From an uncultured Fluviicola sp. (GTDB lineage Bacteria; Bacteroidota; Bacteroidia; Flavobacteriales_D; Crocinitomicaceae): DNA of 64,000 nucleotides. The position numbers and the translations under genes were made by a program. The notes beneath the pieces are model-generated. The model saw only the letters and a program-made list of their open reading frames with translations. It did not search any database and was not told the origin of the DNA. Each line of letters opens with the position of its first letter. The stretch's first letter is position 1. The stretch lies in contig CAJVYC010000006.1 in assembly GCA_913009205.1 (NCBI GenBank), forward strand, positions 1 to 64,000. The letters are read 5' to 3'. Positions 28,452 to 36,299 of this stretch are shown here, one piece after another.

Positions 28452-28482
28452 AAATAAAAAATCCTTCTTGAAATAATCAAGA
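28452..28482 (-). terminator. terminator after the second gldM
   Basis: On the minus strand an ATCCTTCTTGA / TCAAGAAGGAT stem of 11 bp with a 5-base loop is followed by six T residues. It sits between the gldM paralogue stop and the ABC-F start. Confidence 0.85.
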
Positions 28483-28507
28483 AGGATTTATTTATAAAAT
28501 TCATCAT

Positions 28508-30268
28508 TTAACTCTTTGCCCAACTACCTGTTGTAGTCCTTACAATTCCATCAGGGCCTTTAACCTTAACGATAAAGGTGATAATTGTTCCTGATTGCGC
28601 CGCATTGATAAGAACTCCAGCACCTGCGATATTCCCACCAGTACCTTTGATTGCTGCTCCTCTCATTGATGACGTACTGCACGACCAACTTAGAACATCA
28701 TACTTCGCGTTTAATGGAATTTCAGGTGGTAATTTTGCTTGTAGAAGTCTAGACGATCGAACTCTTCCACCGTCTTTGGCTGAACCAAGATACAACGTTG
28801 GATCTGGCAAATTAACAACTTTGTATTGAACCTTTTTCAATTGAACTGTTCGTCCATCTGCTGTGCGACCTGAAACAGTAAGCGTTGCCGATCTTCCACT
28901 TCCCGGACGAACAAAATATCCTTCACCTGATCGTGTCAAAGTAGCATTCGATGGAGTTAAAACAGTAGTCACATATCCAGAAGCCGTAGCATTTACCTGA
29001 TTATTATAACCTCTGTACAGAATATTGAATTGAGGCATCTCGATAGAACCTTGTGGTTTCATAACAGTTACTGTCTTCCTCCAAGGCATTGTTTTTTTTG
29101 CGCCTGTTTTATTTATTATGGAGACTGTTCCACTTAACTCCATTGATGATCCTGTTCCTTTTAATTTTATAAATCCTTTACCGTCGCGAACATCATCAAC
29201 TGTCTGACCGTTATAAATCACTTCAGGTTTTTTGTCGCTGTCGTAAGCGGCCATTAAAACTTCCACTGTAAAGTCTTCATTTGCGTTTACAACTTCTGGA
29301 CCATAAGCCAATGGAATAATCTTGTTAAACGAAAATTCTCCACCGCCAACCCTACTTCTAATTGTAGCAATCGCAGTTGCTCTAGCCGCTAAGATATCCT
29401 TCTGTAGCGATGAAAGTGATGCAACTGCTGCTACGGATGGCGAATGATCGAACGTTTTTCCTATCCAATGAACACCTTTCATTTCATCAACATCCAATCG
29501 TTCTTCTTTCGTCAAACCTCTGTAAATCTCTAAAATCGCATCCCTATCATCCATATGTACATTTTGTTCGCCCATTGATTTTTTAATCTGCTCATTCAGA
29601 TCCTCTTGATCTTTAAATTTATTAATACGGGGTGCTTTGAATGAGAATTTAGTATCTGTCACAACTTTCCCACTTTTATTCGTGTATACATGAGTCGAAG
29701 CAACTAGTTCTGTTATCTGTCCTCTGAATTTATTTAATGAATTCCACAATTTCAATCCTTTACCTTTTGGATTTTTGATATCTGTCGCGTCACCCAACAT
29801 AATACGCATTGGATCATCGTACTTGTCCTTTCCATTCACCCAAGATAAATTCATCCGAACTGGTTTCAATGGGTTTTGATCCTTGTTATATTTCTCTCTT
29901 ACAATATTTCCTGAATGACTCACAGTACTCATATCTTCGCCACAAGACTCAAGAATTTGAAATTTCAAGTCGTCAATTTCTTTAATTCGTCGAGCTGTAA
30001 TTGCATCAATTTTTTCAACTGCTTCCAATAAAATTTCTGCCTTTCTTGCTCGCTCTGGATTTGAATCGTCGGATGCAGTTTCTTTCAACTCTGACTTTTT
30101 CTCATCTCCTCTGAATAACTCTGTCAAATTTGCCTTTTGCATATTCTCTTCAATTGCAACGAATGCATCCAAAATTGATTTGGAAACATTTAATGCAAGC
30201 AAAGCTGTTAAAACTAGGTACATCATCCCTATCATTTTCTGTCTTGGTGTTTCTTTCCCTCCTGCCAT
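28508..30268 (-). CDS. gldM: second GldM (type IX motor subunit paralogue)
   Basis: This 586-residue GldM paralogue has the same plan as the copy at 31935-33698: one N-terminal membrane helix (about residues 12-35) and a long periplasmic part of Ig-like domains ending in the conserved SSRLLQAKLPPEIPL and GPDGIVR segments. The first 42 residues are identical to the other copy, while the rest is strongly diverged, with different insertions in the first periplasmic domain. GldM helices sit in the GldL channel and the tail contacts GldK/GldN. It is preceded by the gldN remnant and followed by its own terminator. It may form an alternative motor or heteromer. Confidence 0.9.
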   Translation of the reverse strand: MAGGKETPRQKMIGMMYLVLTALLALNVSKSILDAFVAIEENMQKANLTELFRGDEKKSELKETASDDSNPERARKAEILLEAVEKIDAITARRIKEIDDLKFQILESCGEDMSTVSHSGNIVREKYNKDQNPLKPVRMNLSWVNGKDKYDDPMRIMLGDATDIKNPKGKGLKLWNSLNKFRGQITELVASTHVYTNKSGKVVTDTKFSFKAPRINKFKDQEDLNEQIKKSMGEQNVHMDDRDAILEIYRGLTKEERLDVDEMKGVHWIGKTFDHSPSVAAVASLSSLQKDILAARATAIATIRSRVGGGEFSFNKIIPLAYGPEVVNANEDFTVEVLMAAYDSDKKPEVIYNGQTVDDVRDGKGFIKLKGTGSSMELSGTVSIINKTGAKKTMPWRKTVTVMKPQGSIEMPQFNILYRGYNNQVNATASGYVTTVLTPSNATLTRSGEGYFVRPGSGRSATLTVSGRTADGRTVQLKKVQYKVVNLPDPTLYLGSAKDGGRVRSSRLLQAKLPPEIPLNAKYDVLSWSCSTSSMRGAAIKGTGGNIAGAGVLINAAQSGTIITFIVKVKGPDGIVRTTTGSWAKS

Positions 30269-30365: not shown

Positions 30366-30399
30366 AACAAAAATCCCGCTATCAAAGGGTTTGATAGCG
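30366..30399 (-). terminator. terminator after the gldN remnant
   Basis: On the minus strand CGCTATCAAA-CCC-TTTGATAGCG forms a perfect 10-bp stem followed by GGATTTTTG. It is intact even though the gene it ended is decayed, and it separates the remnant from the second gldM. Confidence 0.8.
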
Positions 30400-30422
30400 A
30401 GCTTAAAATCTTCATTTATTTT

Positions 30423-30712
30423 CTAGAAAGGCCAAACATCATGCTCAATTCCTCTTATTTCCTCTTTAATTATTTCCACTTCTTGAATGGTCCATAAACT
30501 CCATCTCAAAGGTCAATGAAGAACCAAACTCTTTCACTCAACATTACATCTCGTTCACCAACGCTAGGAGAGGGTAGCATTCTTTTTGTGGGGATATGGA
30601 TGCAAATGGCAATTCCATTAATTATTCCTGGGGAAGGCACGCCTAGAGGTCCATGTTGTGCATTCACTGAAAAACTAAACAGCATGAGAGATGCCATTAC
30701 TACTTTTTTCAT
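30423..30712 (-). pseudogene. decayed second gldN (gldO-like)
   Basis: The first 68 codons (from ATG at 30712) mirror the N terminus of GldN: signal peptide ending VNAQ, then VPSPGIINGIA, HIPTKRMLP and RVWFFIDL, where the intact gene has NVPSDGIIDGVF, HIPTKRMIP and RVWESIDL. A stop follows. One base out of frame the reading continues RWSLWTIQ, then EEIRGIEHDVWPF and stop, matching RWSLWTV and RNIEHDVWSF of the intact copy. More than 200 internal codons are missing. It is therefore a gldN paralogue reduced to about 290 bases. In F. johnsoniae gldN is followed by the paralogue gldO, so this is probably its equivalent. Confidence 0.9.
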
Positions 30713-30790: not shown

Positions 30791-30825
30791 AAAAAAAATC
30801 CCTCTTGGATAAACCAAGAGGGATT
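30791..30825 (-). terminator. terminator after gldN
   Basis: On the minus strand AATCCCTCTTGG pairs with CCAAGAGGGATT across a 5-base loop, followed by a run of T residues. It ends the porP-gldKLMN transcript just before the gldN remnant. Confidence 0.85.
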
Positions 30826-30844
30826 TTATAAAGTTCTCTTTTAA

Positions 30845-31934: not shown

Positions 31935-33698
31935 TTACAGAGACCAGCCTCCACCAATTTGTCTAGTGATTCCGTCGGGACCTCTAACCTTACAAGTAAA
32001 GCTAATTCCAGAACCTGGTTTCAATGCATTGATAAGCGGACCAGCTCCTGCGATACTTCCACCACTACCAGTTGGCGGTGCACCTTTCAATCCAGGTGCA
32101 TAACATGTCCAACTAACCAATTTAAAATCAGCTTTCAAAGGAATCTCAGGAGGGAATTTCGCTTGAAGTAAACGAGAACTCCTTGATCCTTTCGCTCCAC
32201 TTTTCGCAGCCCCCCAATATAAAGTTGGATCTGGAAGATTACTAACTCTAAACGGAGACTTCTTTAATACTTTCGAAGTTCCATCTTTGTTTCTACCAGT
32301 AACACTTAATGTAGCTTCTCTACCTCTACCAGGGCTAACGATGTAACCTTTACCTGATTTAACGTAAGAAGCTCCCGAAGCACCTAAAGAAATCTCATCA
32401 TATCCAGAACCTGAAATCTCAACTTTATTAGGATACCCTCTATAAAGAACATTCAAATCTGTCAATTCAATGGCGCCATTTGGTGTAATCACAGGAACTT
32501 CATATTCCCAATCACGTGTTTTTTCAGCTCCTTGCTTGTTCTTAATTGTAACGGTTCCTTTCAATAACATACTAGAACCACCGGCTCTAAGTGTTACGCT
32601 TCCGACACCATCTTTATAAGTAGTTTTAGCTTCTCCACCTCCTTCGGTAACAACTACAACTGGTTCATTTTGAGAATCGAAAGCGGCCATCATTACATCA
32701 AGTGTAAAATCTTCTCCACCTCTTACAGATCCAGGTCCGTATGCCAATGGCATAATTTTATCGAACGAGTACTCACCTGTAGATATTTTTTGTTTCCACA
32801 AATAAAGAGCTTCCGCTCTCGCAGATAAAATATCTTGTTGCATTGATGAAAGTGACGCAAGCGCAGCTACTAAAGGTGAATGATCAAATGTCATTCCAAT
32901 CCAATGAACGTTTTTTACATCGTGAACGTCTTTTCTCTCACTTTTGGTTAAACGGTTGTAAATAACTGCCAATCCTTCTTTATCGTCGGGATTAACATCA
33001 TCACCGTCTACCATATCCATAATCATTTTGGATAGCTCTTTGTTGTCCTTGTATTTGTTTATGCTTTTAACATCAACTTTAAATTGCTTACCTCCCCATT
33101 TGTATGTACCTGCTAGGTTCATTAGTTCAGTACGGTATGCAATAAGGTCCTTCCAAAGATTGATTCCAGAACCTGTTGGCTTAGTAATATCCTCTCCAAT
33201 AATTTCGTGCATTGGAATATCATACTGATCCTTTGCCTGAACGGCCATTAAATGCATACGTGTAGGGCGGCATTGATTTTCTTTGCTACCATCATACTTT
33301 ACCCACATTATTGACTCTTCATCATTGTTTTTGTAAGTATCAACACTTTCACCTGATTTCTTCATGATATCGATTTTGATATCATCAATCTTTTTGATCA
33401 TTACACCGGTAATCTTATTGATTTGATCCATTTGAGTAAGGGCCTCATCAATACTTTTGATCTTAGCCGCGTTCCCTTTTGGGTCAGTAGCTTGAAGAGC
33501 ACCTTTCTCGCCTCTTACAGCTATAACAAACCCATCACCTCGCTCTACCTGAGCGATATTACCAAGCTGCGTGTTTTCCTCGATAGCAACGAATGCATCA
33601 AGAATAGATTTAGATACGTTAAGTGCTAGTAGAGCGGTGAGTACAAGGTACATCATACCGATCATCTTCTGTCTAGGGGTTTCTTTTCCTCCTGCCAT
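31935..33698 (-). CDS. gldM: gliding motility/type IX motor protein GldM
   Basis: This 587-residue GldM belongs to the complete gldKLMN run, so it is the likely primary copy. It has an N-terminal membrane helix (about residues 12-35) with the conserved start MAGGKETPRQKM, then periplasmic Ig-like domains and the C-terminal SSRLLQAKFPPEIPL and GPDGITR segments. Two GldM chains rotate within a GldL pentamer, powered by protons, to drive secretion and gliding. It follows gldL by about 60 bases and precedes gldN by about 43. Confidence 0.95.
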   Translation of the reverse strand: MAGGKETPRQKMIGMMYLVLTALLALNVSKSILDAFVAIEENTQLGNIAQVERGDGFVIAVRGEKGALQATDPKGNAAKIKSIDEALTQMDQINKITGVMIKKIDDIKIDIMKKSGESVDTYKNNDEESIMWVKYDGSKENQCRPTRMHLMAVQAKDQYDIPMHEIIGEDITKPTGSGINLWKDLIAYRTELMNLAGTYKWGGKQFKVDVKSINKYKDNKELSKMIMDMVDGDDVNPDDKEGLAVIYNRLTKSERKDVHDVKNVHWIGMTFDHSPLVAALASLSSMQQDILSARAEALYLWKQKISTGEYSFDKIMPLAYGPGSVRGGEDFTLDVMMAAFDSQNEPVVVVTEGGGEAKTTYKDGVGSVTLRAGGSSMLLKGTVTIKNKQGAEKTRDWEYEVPVITPNGAIELTDLNVLYRGYPNKVEISGSGYDEISLGASGASYVKSGKGYIVSPGRGREATLSVTGRNKDGTSKVLKKSPFRVSNLPDPTLYWGAAKSGAKGSRSSRLLQAKFPPEIPLKADFKLVSWTCYAPGLKGAPPTGSGGSIAGAGPLINALKPGSGISFTCKVRGPDGITRQIGGGWSL

Positions 33699-33757: not shown

Positions 33758-34561
33758 CTATTTAGTAATTGTCATAGCTTGTAACATATTTCCGTATACA
33801 GAATTAAGATCCGTCAAGTTCTTAGACAACATAGACATGTTTTCCTTGTACCGACGTGTATCCTCAGCAGACGCAGCAAGATTACCCATCATATCAGTTA
33901 CTTGTACTTGGAATTTCTCTGTTGCTTCCAAATGAGCTGAAGATCCTTTCAATTGCAATTCGTAAACATTGTTCAATGCTGAAAGGTTTTTAGAAACTTT
34001 CTGCATTTGCTCACCGAATGAATCACCTTCTGCTTGAGAAGAAGTCATTCCTGAGATAGAAACAGACGCTCTTTCATAAGCTTCAGATAACGAAGATACT
34101 TTGTCAGATGCAGCTTGTAAACTATCAACGTAAGAATCAGTTGCAGCAACAGCAGACGTTACACCTTTTAATTGTGCAGCGTTCTCTCCTAAGTGTCTCA
34201 TTCCGTCACCAAGACGTTCTAACAATTCACCATCGATTTTTGCTTCTTCCAACATTTTGTCTAATTGGTCAGTGATACTATTTCCACCACGACCTCCTGC
34301 AGGAAGATTATCGTGATCTAAATCATCAGAATGACCTAAAGCCAATTCTGGATATACTAATTCCCAATTTGGATCTTCGTGAATTGGTTCGAATGCGGAG
34401 AAAAAGAAAATTACTGCCTCAGTACTAAGACCTACTACAAGCATTGGACCTGCGAAAGGCCAGTGCATAATTTTAAATAATGCTCCCATAATAACGATTG
34501 CTGCTCCAATTCCATACAGCTTCGCCATAAAATTTTTCCATGCTTTACTTCCTGGTTTCAT
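33758..34561 (-). CDS. gldL: gliding motility/type IX motor protein GldL
   Basis: The 267-residue protein has two membrane helices (about residues 10-30 and 35-57) with the conserved AKLYGIGAAIVIMGALFKI and MHWPFAGPML, including the His and the Glu of STEAVIFFFSAF that lie in the proton path. A long cytoplasmic, coiled-coil tail follows, Ser/Glu/Leu-rich (about residues 90-260). GldL is the proton-channel stator of the motor and pairs with GldM. It lies between gldK and gldM in the standard order. Confidence 0.95.
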   Translation of the reverse strand: MKPGSKAWKNFMAKLYGIGAAIVIMGALFKIMHWPFAGPMLVVGLSTEAVIFFFSAFEPIHEDPNWELVYPELALGHSDDLDHDNLPAGGRGGNSITDQLDKMLEEAKIDGELLERLGDGMRHLGENAAQLKGVTSAVAATDSYVDSLQAASDKVSSLSEAYERASVSISGMTSSQAEGDSFGEQMQKVSKNLSALNNVYELQLKGSSAHLEATEKFQVQVTDMMGNLAASAEDTRRYKENMSMLSKNLTDLNSVYGNMLQAMTITK

Positions 34562-34622: not shown

Positions 34623-36188
34623 CTAGCGAAGTTGAATATCGCTTCGAATTTCTTCTCCACCTTCTTTAGTGAAGTCACGACCTCCACGTCCCAGGTGTGT
34701 CATTACATTTCTATAACCAATGTATGACTTGGCTGTGTCTTGATACTCGAATGTTCGAGTTGAGTTTCTCAAGTAATATCCAATATCTTTCCAAGAACCC
34801 CCTCTTAAAACCTTACGTTTCATTGATGGTGGATCCCAATCCATTGCATTGTATCTATAATCAGTATTCAAATCATGAGAGAATTCATACATTGACTCGT
34901 CGAAAGCAGTTTCACACCACTCAGACACATTTCCAGCCATACAATAAAGACCCCATCCATTTGGGTTGTAAGAATATACTTTCACTGAGTGGAAACCACC
35001 ATCTTCAAAATACCTACCTCTCATTGGTTTAAAGTTTCCAAGGAAACAACCTGACTCATTTCTAATGTAAGGTCCACCCCAAGGATATTGAGACAATTCC
35101 AAGTCACCTCTTGAAGCTCTTTCCCATTCTGCTTCAGTTGGCAAACGGAAATCATTCACAAATAAATCTCCCATTTCAACTAGCCATGTATTCAATAATT
35201 GAGTTCTCCAAATTGAGAAAGCTTTTGCTTGCGTCCAAGTCACACCTACAACTGGATAGTTATCGTATGCTGGATGCCAGAAATACATGTTAGTCATTGG
35301 ATCATGGAATGAGTAAGTGAAATCACGCACCCAACATAATGTATCCGGGTAAACGTTTATTTTCTCATCAATAATGAAACGCTGACGGTTTGCATGTCCA
35401 CGTATTGCATTACTTTGACCTTTCTTGTTAATTGATCCTTCACCAGGAACACCTTGCGACAAATTCAAATCTTGCCCTTGAGGCTCTTCAGTAAATGGAT
35501 GAGGAGGAGTATCTAACTCTCTATGCTCCGGAACCAACTTAACACCATCTTTATCGAATGCATTAGGTGTTATATTAATACGACCTCTTTTTGCCGCTTC
35601 AACATAATCAATCCAATAGTAAGTGAAAACCAATTTACGCGTATCGAATTCTCTCCGCTTGTAGAATCTCTCTGGTTGTGGATAATACATATCCGCCAAA
35701 AGAGGCACTAATTCAGGATCTCCATAGTAAAATCTACGGTCCCAATTTAGGCTAAAATTTTCACGATTGATGTATCTATCAGATTCTTCAAACTCAACAT
35801 ACTCCAAGTCACCTTCGCTGAAGTAATACTCAGAATAATCAATCCATCGACTTGCATCTTCATCTTCTTCCAAACCGATGTAGATTTTTTCTCTAGCAAT
35901 GGAGTCGCGAACCCAATTAACGAATTGGCGGTACTCATTGTTCGAAATTTCTGTCTGGTCCATGTAAAATGCCTGAACCGAAACAGTCTTCGCTCTGGTT
36001 TGATGAAGGAAAGGAACGTCGCCATCATTTTGCCCCATAGTGAAACCACCAGCAGGGATATATATCATTCCTAAAGGAACTTCTGGATGGTATGGTGTTC
36101 TTCCATATGCACCTTCCAAATGTCCTGACCTTGTACTACACGAAGCTAACGTCGCAGCAACTATAGTATATAACAAAAGTTTTTTCAT
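34623..36188 (-). CDS. gldK: gliding motility/type IX lipoprotein GldK
   Basis: GldK is an outer-membrane lipoprotein with a formylglycine-generating-enzyme-like (FGE/SUMF1) fold and forms the ring with GldN. The start MKKLLLYTIVAATLASC gives a lipobox (LASC) and was chosen over an in-frame ATG 25 codons upstream that has no signal. The FGE motifs are seen: IPAGGFTMGQNDGD, FYMDQTEISNNEY, VVGVTWTQAKAFSIWR, FRLPTEAEWERASRG, GNVSEWCETA and VLRGGSWKD. The catalytic Cys pair of true FGEs is not expected in GldK. gldL follows. Confidence 0.95.
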   Translation of the reverse strand: MKKLLLYTIVAATLASCSTRSGHLEGAYGRTPYHPEVPLGMIYIPAGGFTMGQNDGDVPFLHQTRAKTVSVQAFYMDQTEISNNEYRQFVNWVRDSIAREKIYIGLEEDEDASRWIDYSEYYFSEGDLEYVEFEESDRYINRENFSLNWDRRFYYGDPELVPLLADMYYPQPERFYKRREFDTRKLVFTYYWIDYVEAAKRGRINITPNAFDKDGVKLVPEHRELDTPPHPFTEEPQGQDLNLSQGVPGEGSINKKGQSNAIRGHANRQRFIIDEKINVYPDTLCWVRDFTYSFHDPMTNMYFWHPAYDNYPVVGVTWTQAKAFSIWRTQLLNTWLVEMGDLFVNDFRLPTEAEWERASRGDLELSQYPWGGPYIRNESGCFLGNFKPMRGRYFEDGGFHSVKVYSYNPNGWGLYCMAGNVSEWCETAFDESMYEFSHDLNTDYRYNAMDWDPPSMKRKVLRGGSWKDIGYYLRNSTRTFEYQDTAKSYIGYRNVMTHLGRGGRDFTKEGGEEIRSDIQLR

Positions 36189-36299
36189 TCTACCTCTTTT
36201 TAATCTTCCGGATATCTTTATTAACGAATTACAGGATCTATGTGTTTCGATATAACGGAACATTCACTGATTTGGTTACATTTTATTTTACAAATTATT

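Follow-up and report, generated by a model that had tools for sequence, protein, structure and literature searches.

Organization of the Locus

GldM is the rod through which the movement of a proton-driven motor in the membrane reaches the outer layer of the cell. The window, by which we mean the whole 64,000-nucleotide stretch of Fluviicola sp. DNA analysed here, carries on its minus strand, in this order, porP, gldK, gldL, gldM1, gldN, a relic of a second gldN, gldM2 and then an ABC-F gene (Table 1). The first-pass annotation had placed two full-length GldM proteins within 5.2 kb; its coordinates and protein lengths proved exact, the span being 5191 bp. It had also described gldM2 as having neither a GldL nor a GldN of its own. 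The first part of this stands, the genome having a single GldL, but the degraded second gldN had been overlooked. The terminator that it had assigned to gldM2 is present downstream of the gene, and two more hairpins lie upstream, one after gldN and one after the gldN relic. By position gldM2 belongs to the cluster, adjoining gldKLMN and the gldN relic, yet its terminators set it apart as a separate unit.

Table 1. Features of the gld locus in the window (positions are those of the window).
Feature	Position	Strand	Evidence
Terminator-like hairpin 3' of gldM2	28459..28489	-	hairpin scan
gldM2, second full-length GldM, 586 aa, B type	28508..30268	-	TIGR03517 202.2 bits; Pfam domains 1-3; AlphaFold model; tree
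gldM2 codons 488-586, D4, outer tip, hypervariable among second-position copies	28511..28807	-	border from model
gldM2 codons 1-42, with the cytoplasmic end and the transmembrane helix; same sequence as in GldM1, including Arg9	30143..30268	-	pS 0.84
Terminator-like hairpin in the gap between gldN relic and gldM2	30375..30401	-	hairpin scan
Second gldN relic: open over the first 68 codons, no middle, tail in a different frame	30423..30712	-	E 1.5e-13 for 30500-30712
Terminator-like hairpin 3' of gldN	30795..30827	-	hairpin scan
gldN, 348 aa	30845..31891	-	TIGR03523 173.8 bits, cut-off 85.9
gldM1, 587 aa, A type	31935..33698	-	TIGR03517 205.8 bits; tree
gldL, the genome's only GldL	33758..34561	-	TIGR03513 249.8 bits, cut-off 68.3; one match in genome
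gldK	34623..36263	-	TIGR03525 551.1 bits, cut-off 350

Elsewhere in the window's genome (G000), a GldJ-like frame of 677 aa (C1:196223-198633) matches GldJ in pieces that stay below the family cut-off, and contig C3 carries one SprA over the cut-off. In many Crocinitomicaceae records (L144-L163), gldK matches in several pieces, a few hundred bases apart, which would suit insertions in the gene.

The Second GldM Protein

The two GldM proteins, the only GldM matches in the genome, are identical at 287 of 598 positions (48%). Both pass the cut-off (180) of the GldM equivalog TIGR03517 and both match Pfam GldM domains 1-3, while the Pfam model of the fourth GldM domain is reached by neither. Identity between them is very uneven along the chain: 1.00 over residues 1-42, 0.37 in D1, 0.50 in D2, 0.49 in D3 and 0.56 in D4. 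The AlphaFold model of GldM2, built from a 73-row alignment (mean pLDDT 90), has the domain plan of GldM, with a predicted helix at residues 8-66, a helical D1 and three beta domains, i.e., a predicted four-domain D1-D4 arrangement. The six best PDB matches of the model are PorM and GldM structures, including PorM 7cmg and GldM 6ey4; their TM-scores are low, which comes from a difference in domain angles. On the sequence and structural tests applied, GldM2 is a GldM: it shares with the GldM/PorM family the curated model, the Pfam domains, the length, the helix with Arg9 and the predicted fold. What distinguishes it from described members is that it is a second paralogue beside a single gldL and that second-position copies combine a fixed base with a hypervariable tip.

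The first-pass annotation had allowed for a dying duplicate if relatives had a single gldM at this locus and the second copy showed no constraint; neither is the case. Compared with the nearest relative, G003, dN/dS is 0.045 for gldM2, 0.110 for gldM1, 0.057 for gldK, 0.096 for gldL and 0.083 for gldN; only the order of size of the gldM2 value is usable, since dS is near saturation (pS 0.71), and that order is far from one. The gldM2 gene is intact, constrained and old. In G003 itself gldM2 has a frameshift near residue 537, which may be a sequencing error, the assembly being a metagenome-assembled genome of 800 contigs that is 79% complete. Taken with the gldN2 relic of the window, the damage in G003 may also be a sign of erosion of the second unit in this lineage.

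A Relic of the Second gldN

Over its first 68 residues the relic is identical to the second GldN of G003 at 49 positions. The start of the relic matches the window's own GldN at 38 of 73 positions. The tail is 16/17 identical; the middle is gone and the reading frame is lost. Because this broken gene sits between gldN and gldM2, we read the older gene order as K-L-M-N-N2-M2. A full-length, open second gldN is present in 14 of the 34 genomes of the genus (the window's own included), that of G016 being on another contig, and the gldN2 of G003 has an in-frame stop at codon 217. The second GldN is more variable than the first (0.635 vs. 0.76 in 11 genomes). The two second genes are only weakly linked: among 32 resolved genomes, 12 have both gldM2 and gldN2, seven gldM2 only, three gldN2 only and ten neither, which gives a Fisher p of 0.036, or 0.075 if the stopped gldN2 of G003 is counted as lost, with kinship between the genomes ignored. 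A link between the loss of gldN2 and a GldM1-like tip of GldM2 was dropped (Mann-Whitney p 0.09; five genomes that lack a full-length gldN2 against 12 that have one, G003 being placed among the latter and G018 and G046 not entered).

Between gldN2 and gldM2 lies, in L035:10161-12581 and L039:9498-11951, a gene that is some 810 codons long and has FG-GAP and UnbV/ASPIC domains; this was checked in G020, the start is similar in G017, and the gap in G044 is equally large. In more distant Bacteroidota (L180:7659-10900 and L182), three or four gldN-like genes follow a single gldM in a row. Proteins of 445-557 aa in L089, L094, L095 and L106 resemble GldN over some 40-60 residues (near its residues 167-231), and the one tested has no Pfam match.

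Distribution and Age of the Two-GldM Arrangement

Related genomes had been proposed as the place to look for a second gldM after gldN, and there the arrangement turned out to be common. In the genus, 19 of the 34 genomes have two GldM proteins over the whole length (one of them, in G003, frameshifted), 13 have one and two (G002 and G041, left out of the GldM tree) have fragments. Ten of the 13 single-GldM genomes carry the A type and three (G007, G045 and G047) a B shaft; completeness is 90% or more in eight of the 13, and single-copy status is firm only in part because several assemblies are incomplete. The order K-L-M-N-N2-M2 is also found in Fluviicola chungangensis (L139; its gldN genes being 1.9 kb apart), UBA7666 (L133) and Crocinitomix algicola (L167), further in L117, L164, L168 and L170, and in G026, a one-contig genome from another family. 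Three one-contig genomes from the same family as the window (G104, G114 and G137) have two GldM genes about 4 kb apart, as does G026, so that the pair of gldM genes is not an assembly fault.

In a tree of 57 GldM sequences, those of the genus fall into clades A (27 rows, 26 of them in first position) and B (24 rows, 18 in second position), with supports of 96/87 and 97/89; G046 has two A-type copies. In a quick tree the split extends to other genera, but each of the two copies in Fluviicola chungangensis, as in Crocinitomix, lies closer to the other. As the origin of the locus, simple duplication of an M-N unit in tandem was discarded: it would yield M-N-M-N, and the order found is M-N-N-M. 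Since the order recurs in several genera and one other family, and since the copies often cluster by lineage, we favour an old arrangement with exchange between the copies as more probable than repeated duplication of the same kind, which the trees would also allow.

This distribution bears on the possibility that gldM2 is a dying duplicate or an artefact of assembly. The wrecked gldN2 of the window, the in-frame stop in gldN2 and the frameshift in gldM2 of G003, and the fast evolution of D4 described below would all agree with decay, but the reading frame is intact, dN/dS is far below one, the second copy is kept in more than half of the genus, and pairs of gldM genes stand in one-contig genomes. 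We consider this explanation very improbable.

The Motor End

One GldL over the family cut-off is found in each of 33 of the 34 genus genomes, and none in G041, which is 72% complete. Weaker GldL-like matches, 17 in number and 32-48 residues long, occur in relatives, all below the cut-off; none is in the window's genome. Residues 1-42 of the two GldM proteins of the window are identical while pS over the same codons is 0.84. With synonymous sites so saturated, the identity of this segment points to selection, rather than recent copying, as what holds it; gene conversion as its source is ruled out for the window pair on the same ground. In 12 further two-copy genomes the copies are 0.95-1.00 identical over these residues, and over all 21 pairs compared the range is 0.88-1.00. 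Arg9, which is reported to pair with Glu49 of GldL (PMC12239597), is invariant in 73 GldM sequences, GldM2 included.

Because the cytoplasmic end and the membrane helix are the same in both proteins and only one GldL is available, GldM2 most likely fits into the GldL pentamer that GldM1 uses. The first-pass annotation had suggested heterodimers, and an obligate or preferred GldM1-GldM2 pair within one GldL pentamer would be an asymmetric shaft made from two genes. Identical membrane helices would permit mixed dimers, and the GldM pair inside GldL is reported to be structurally unequal (PMC12239597). The obligate form of the idea is nevertheless weakened by the 13 genomes with a single GldM, eight of them at least 90% complete: with ten genomes that have only the A type and three that have only a B shaft, obligate heterodimers are unlikely. 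Lower codon adaptation of gldM2 than of gldM1 and separate terminators, described in the next section, also speak against production at 1:1, and we regard heterodimers of either kind as improbable.

Expression

Our own hairpin finder placed terminator-like hairpins after gldN in G003, G004, G005, G006, G015, L133 and L167. After gldN2 they are present in G003, G004, L133, L139 and L167 and absent from G005 and G006; after gldM2, present in G004, G005 and G015 and absent from G003, G019 and G020, the last of which has no hairpin in any of its gaps by this finder. Codon adaptation, calculated with 29 ORFs of the ribosomal-protein region as the reference, is 0.80 for gldL, 0.73 for gldK, 0.70 for gldM1, 0.69 for gldN and 0.66 for gldM2, the last ranking 17th among the 46 ORFs of the window (median 0.64). 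The flanking hairpins and the lower codon adaptation suggest that gldM2 may be a separate and more weakly expressed unit. A scan for sigma-70-type sites gave 33, against a mean of 30.2 in shuffled sequences, and the best site (11/12) lies before gldM2, at 30385-30356. A scan with a Bacteroidota-type promoter consensus gave five sites vs. 4.4 expected by chance, none of them before gldM2; neither scan enters the argument.

The Outer Tip

In PorM, D4 is reported to contact the outer PorKN complex, and a kink is reported between D2 and D3 (PMC8986121). It is in D4 that the two positions of the locus differ most. Mean pairwise identity of this domain across 17 two-copy genomes is 0.637 for first copies and 0.385 for second copies; the corresponding values are 0.979 and 0.968 for residues 1-42, 0.532 and 0.569 for D1, 0.575 and 0.546 for D2, and 0.662 and 0.607 for D3. 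These averages leave out G003, with its frameshifted second copy, and G046, with its two A-type copies. The second copy of G003 is likewise absent from the AU tests below, but was kept in the GldM trees, the pair table and the pN comparison, and where this row is kept its last residues, being out of frame, inflate the D4 difference. In all nine chosen pairs of closer genomes pN of D4 is higher in the second copy, the pairs sharing genomes and therefore not being independent. The same is seen in a Fluviicola-type pair (L133 and L139), where identity of first and second copies is 0.98 vs. 0.55 in D4 and 0.90 vs. 0.85 in D1. In Crocinitomix there is no clear tip-specific effect, every domain of the second copy being faster. 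The two D4 domains of the window, at 0.56 identity, are among the closest of the 21 pairs compared.

The first-pass annotation had proposed that a second GldM could link one proton motor to a different outer-membrane partner, and the hypervariable D4 of second-position copies lends this indirect support. Fast evolution of D4 may, however, reflect relaxed constraint rather than a new partner.

Natural Shaft Swaps

In six genomes (G006, G007, G016, G022, G045 and G047) the first-position GldM is recombinant, with D1-D2 of the B type and D4 of the first type, the signal being weakest in G045. The case of G047 illustrates this well, as its D4 is 0.96 identical to that of G008 and its D1 only 0.38. 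In the D1 tree the B rows and the six recombinants form one side of a branch with a support of 100, although holding all first-position D1 domains together is not rejected (p-AU 0.415). For D4, the AU test rejects a group made up of the six and the second copies (p-AU 0.017, lnL difference 56); a grouping by position is weakly supported (73). The best single breakpoints (398, 366, 449, 408, 404 and 366) cluster near the D2/D3 border, at 404/405. Together with the reported D4-PorKN contact and D2/D3 kink of PorM, the recombinants indicate that at the place beside gldL the tip is kept, while either shaft is tolerated. None of the 34 genus genomes has a pure second-type GldM as its sole GldM: those with only a B shaft (G007, G045 and G047) are recombinants with a first-type tip, which fits a first-type tip that is the essential contact and a second type that is an accessory output.

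Parts of GldM also occur as proteins of their own in relatives from the genus. Stand-alone D1-D2 proteins (L062:1387-2574, L063:5101-6300, L064:1663-2751, L065:6132-7235, L093, L096, L097 and L110) are about 360-400 aa long and match GldM from about residue 30 to 404, without the membrane helix; several have starts that look, by eye, lipoprotein-like or secreted-like, and the two tested match Pfam GldM_1st. Stand-alone D3-D4 proteins (L066:5272-6622, L067:5333-5956, L068, L069:5651-6265, L071, L092, L098-L105 and L107-L109) are about 190-290 aa long, match only D3-D4 of GldM (from about residue 405) and mostly have a signal-peptide-like start; they are cut at the same D2/D3 border as the recombinants, and none is present in the window's genome. 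A 656-aa protein of G017 (L088:4217-6187) matches GldM D3 close to its beginning and, later in the chain, GldN over a short stretch.

The swaps also bear on whether GldM2 is simply a redundant spare, interchangeable with GldM1, having the same partner and the same job and kept for dosage or condition-specific expression. Such a case would resemble GldN and GldO of Flavobacterium johnsoniae, which are reported to be adjacent and partially redundant (PMC9127263). The genes come and go within the genus, separate terminators permit separate expression, and no intact GldN2 is left in the window, all of which would suit a spare. Between the two positions, however, D4 shows a strong and specific difference, and six genomes exchanged the shaft while keeping the first-position tip, which a pure spare would not need. 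We therefore hold redundancy to be rather unlikely.

A Proposed Role for GldM2

The explanation that best accounts for the data as a whole, to which we give a probability of about one half, is that one GldL motor serves two GldM shafts, the second of which has its own outlet. According to this proposal gldM2 would encode a second shaft, old and functional, for the motor of type IX secretion and gliding. Genomes whose sole GldM has one or the other shaft speak for homodimers, and GldM2 probably forms its own, at a lower level and from its own transcription unit, and there would therefore be two kinds of GldL-GldM motor unit per cell. In the first kind, the conserved D4 tip would serve the standard GldK-GldN ring; in the second, the fast-changing D4 tip would contact a different or species-specific partner. 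That partner may once have been GldN2, which is broken here; as the window has no intact GldN2, it could now be GldN, GldK or another envelope protein. The shared GldL, the GldM2 homodimer, the lower expression and the different partner are each inferred.

A more detailed version, which we put forward tentatively, is that one GldL drives two exchangeable shafts, the rod being modular at the D2/D3 border, so that the shaft can be swapped while the tip stays with its locus and its partner, and the halves also occur on their own, as envelope proteins of relatives that are divided at this very border. Of the earlier interpretation, a constrained second GldM, a single GldL, an identical motor end and the terminators remain in place; heterodimers are weakened in their obligate form, and the statement on GldN is corrected, since a gldN once stood beside the second GldM gene.

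Comparison with Known Systems

In flagellar motors with dual stators, one ring can be driven by stator units of two kinds; that case doubles both of the stator subunits, and here only the shaft protein is doubled. The nearest working analogue of the arrangement is ExbB with ExbD1 and ExbD2, and the nearest relative within the same machine is the gldN/gldO pair. ExbB of Xanthomonas campestris is reported with both ExbD1 and ExbD2, an arrangement also reported for Flavobacterium psychrophilum, and ExbD2 is reported to be dispensable for the main task and needed for another (PMC3551730). By analogy, one proton-channel gene adjoins two genes for dimeric arms in that system, as one GldL would go with two GldM proteins here; the Exb proteins, however, belong to another family with another task, and that genome has further exbB and exbD copies. 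The gldN/gldO pair likewise consists of tandem paralogues of a motor-ring component in the same place of the same operon. There it is the ring protein that is doubled; here the shaft is doubled too, and of the second gldN the window has only a broken form. In the parts of the open-licence literature consulted, we recognised no description of a second gldM. The new elements here are one GldL paired with two GldM proteins and the split behaviour of the base and the tip.

To our knowledge, it is not settled how one type IX motor serves both secretion and gliding, nor which part of GldM decides what is pushed. One GldL with two GldM proteins, a base that is constant, a tip that varies and shafts swapped in nature point to D4 as the part that would confer specificity, and the natural GldM family offers ready comparisons for D4 specificity. 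If the proposal is true, the locus would be a rotary-motor counterpart to the case of ExbD1 and ExbD2.
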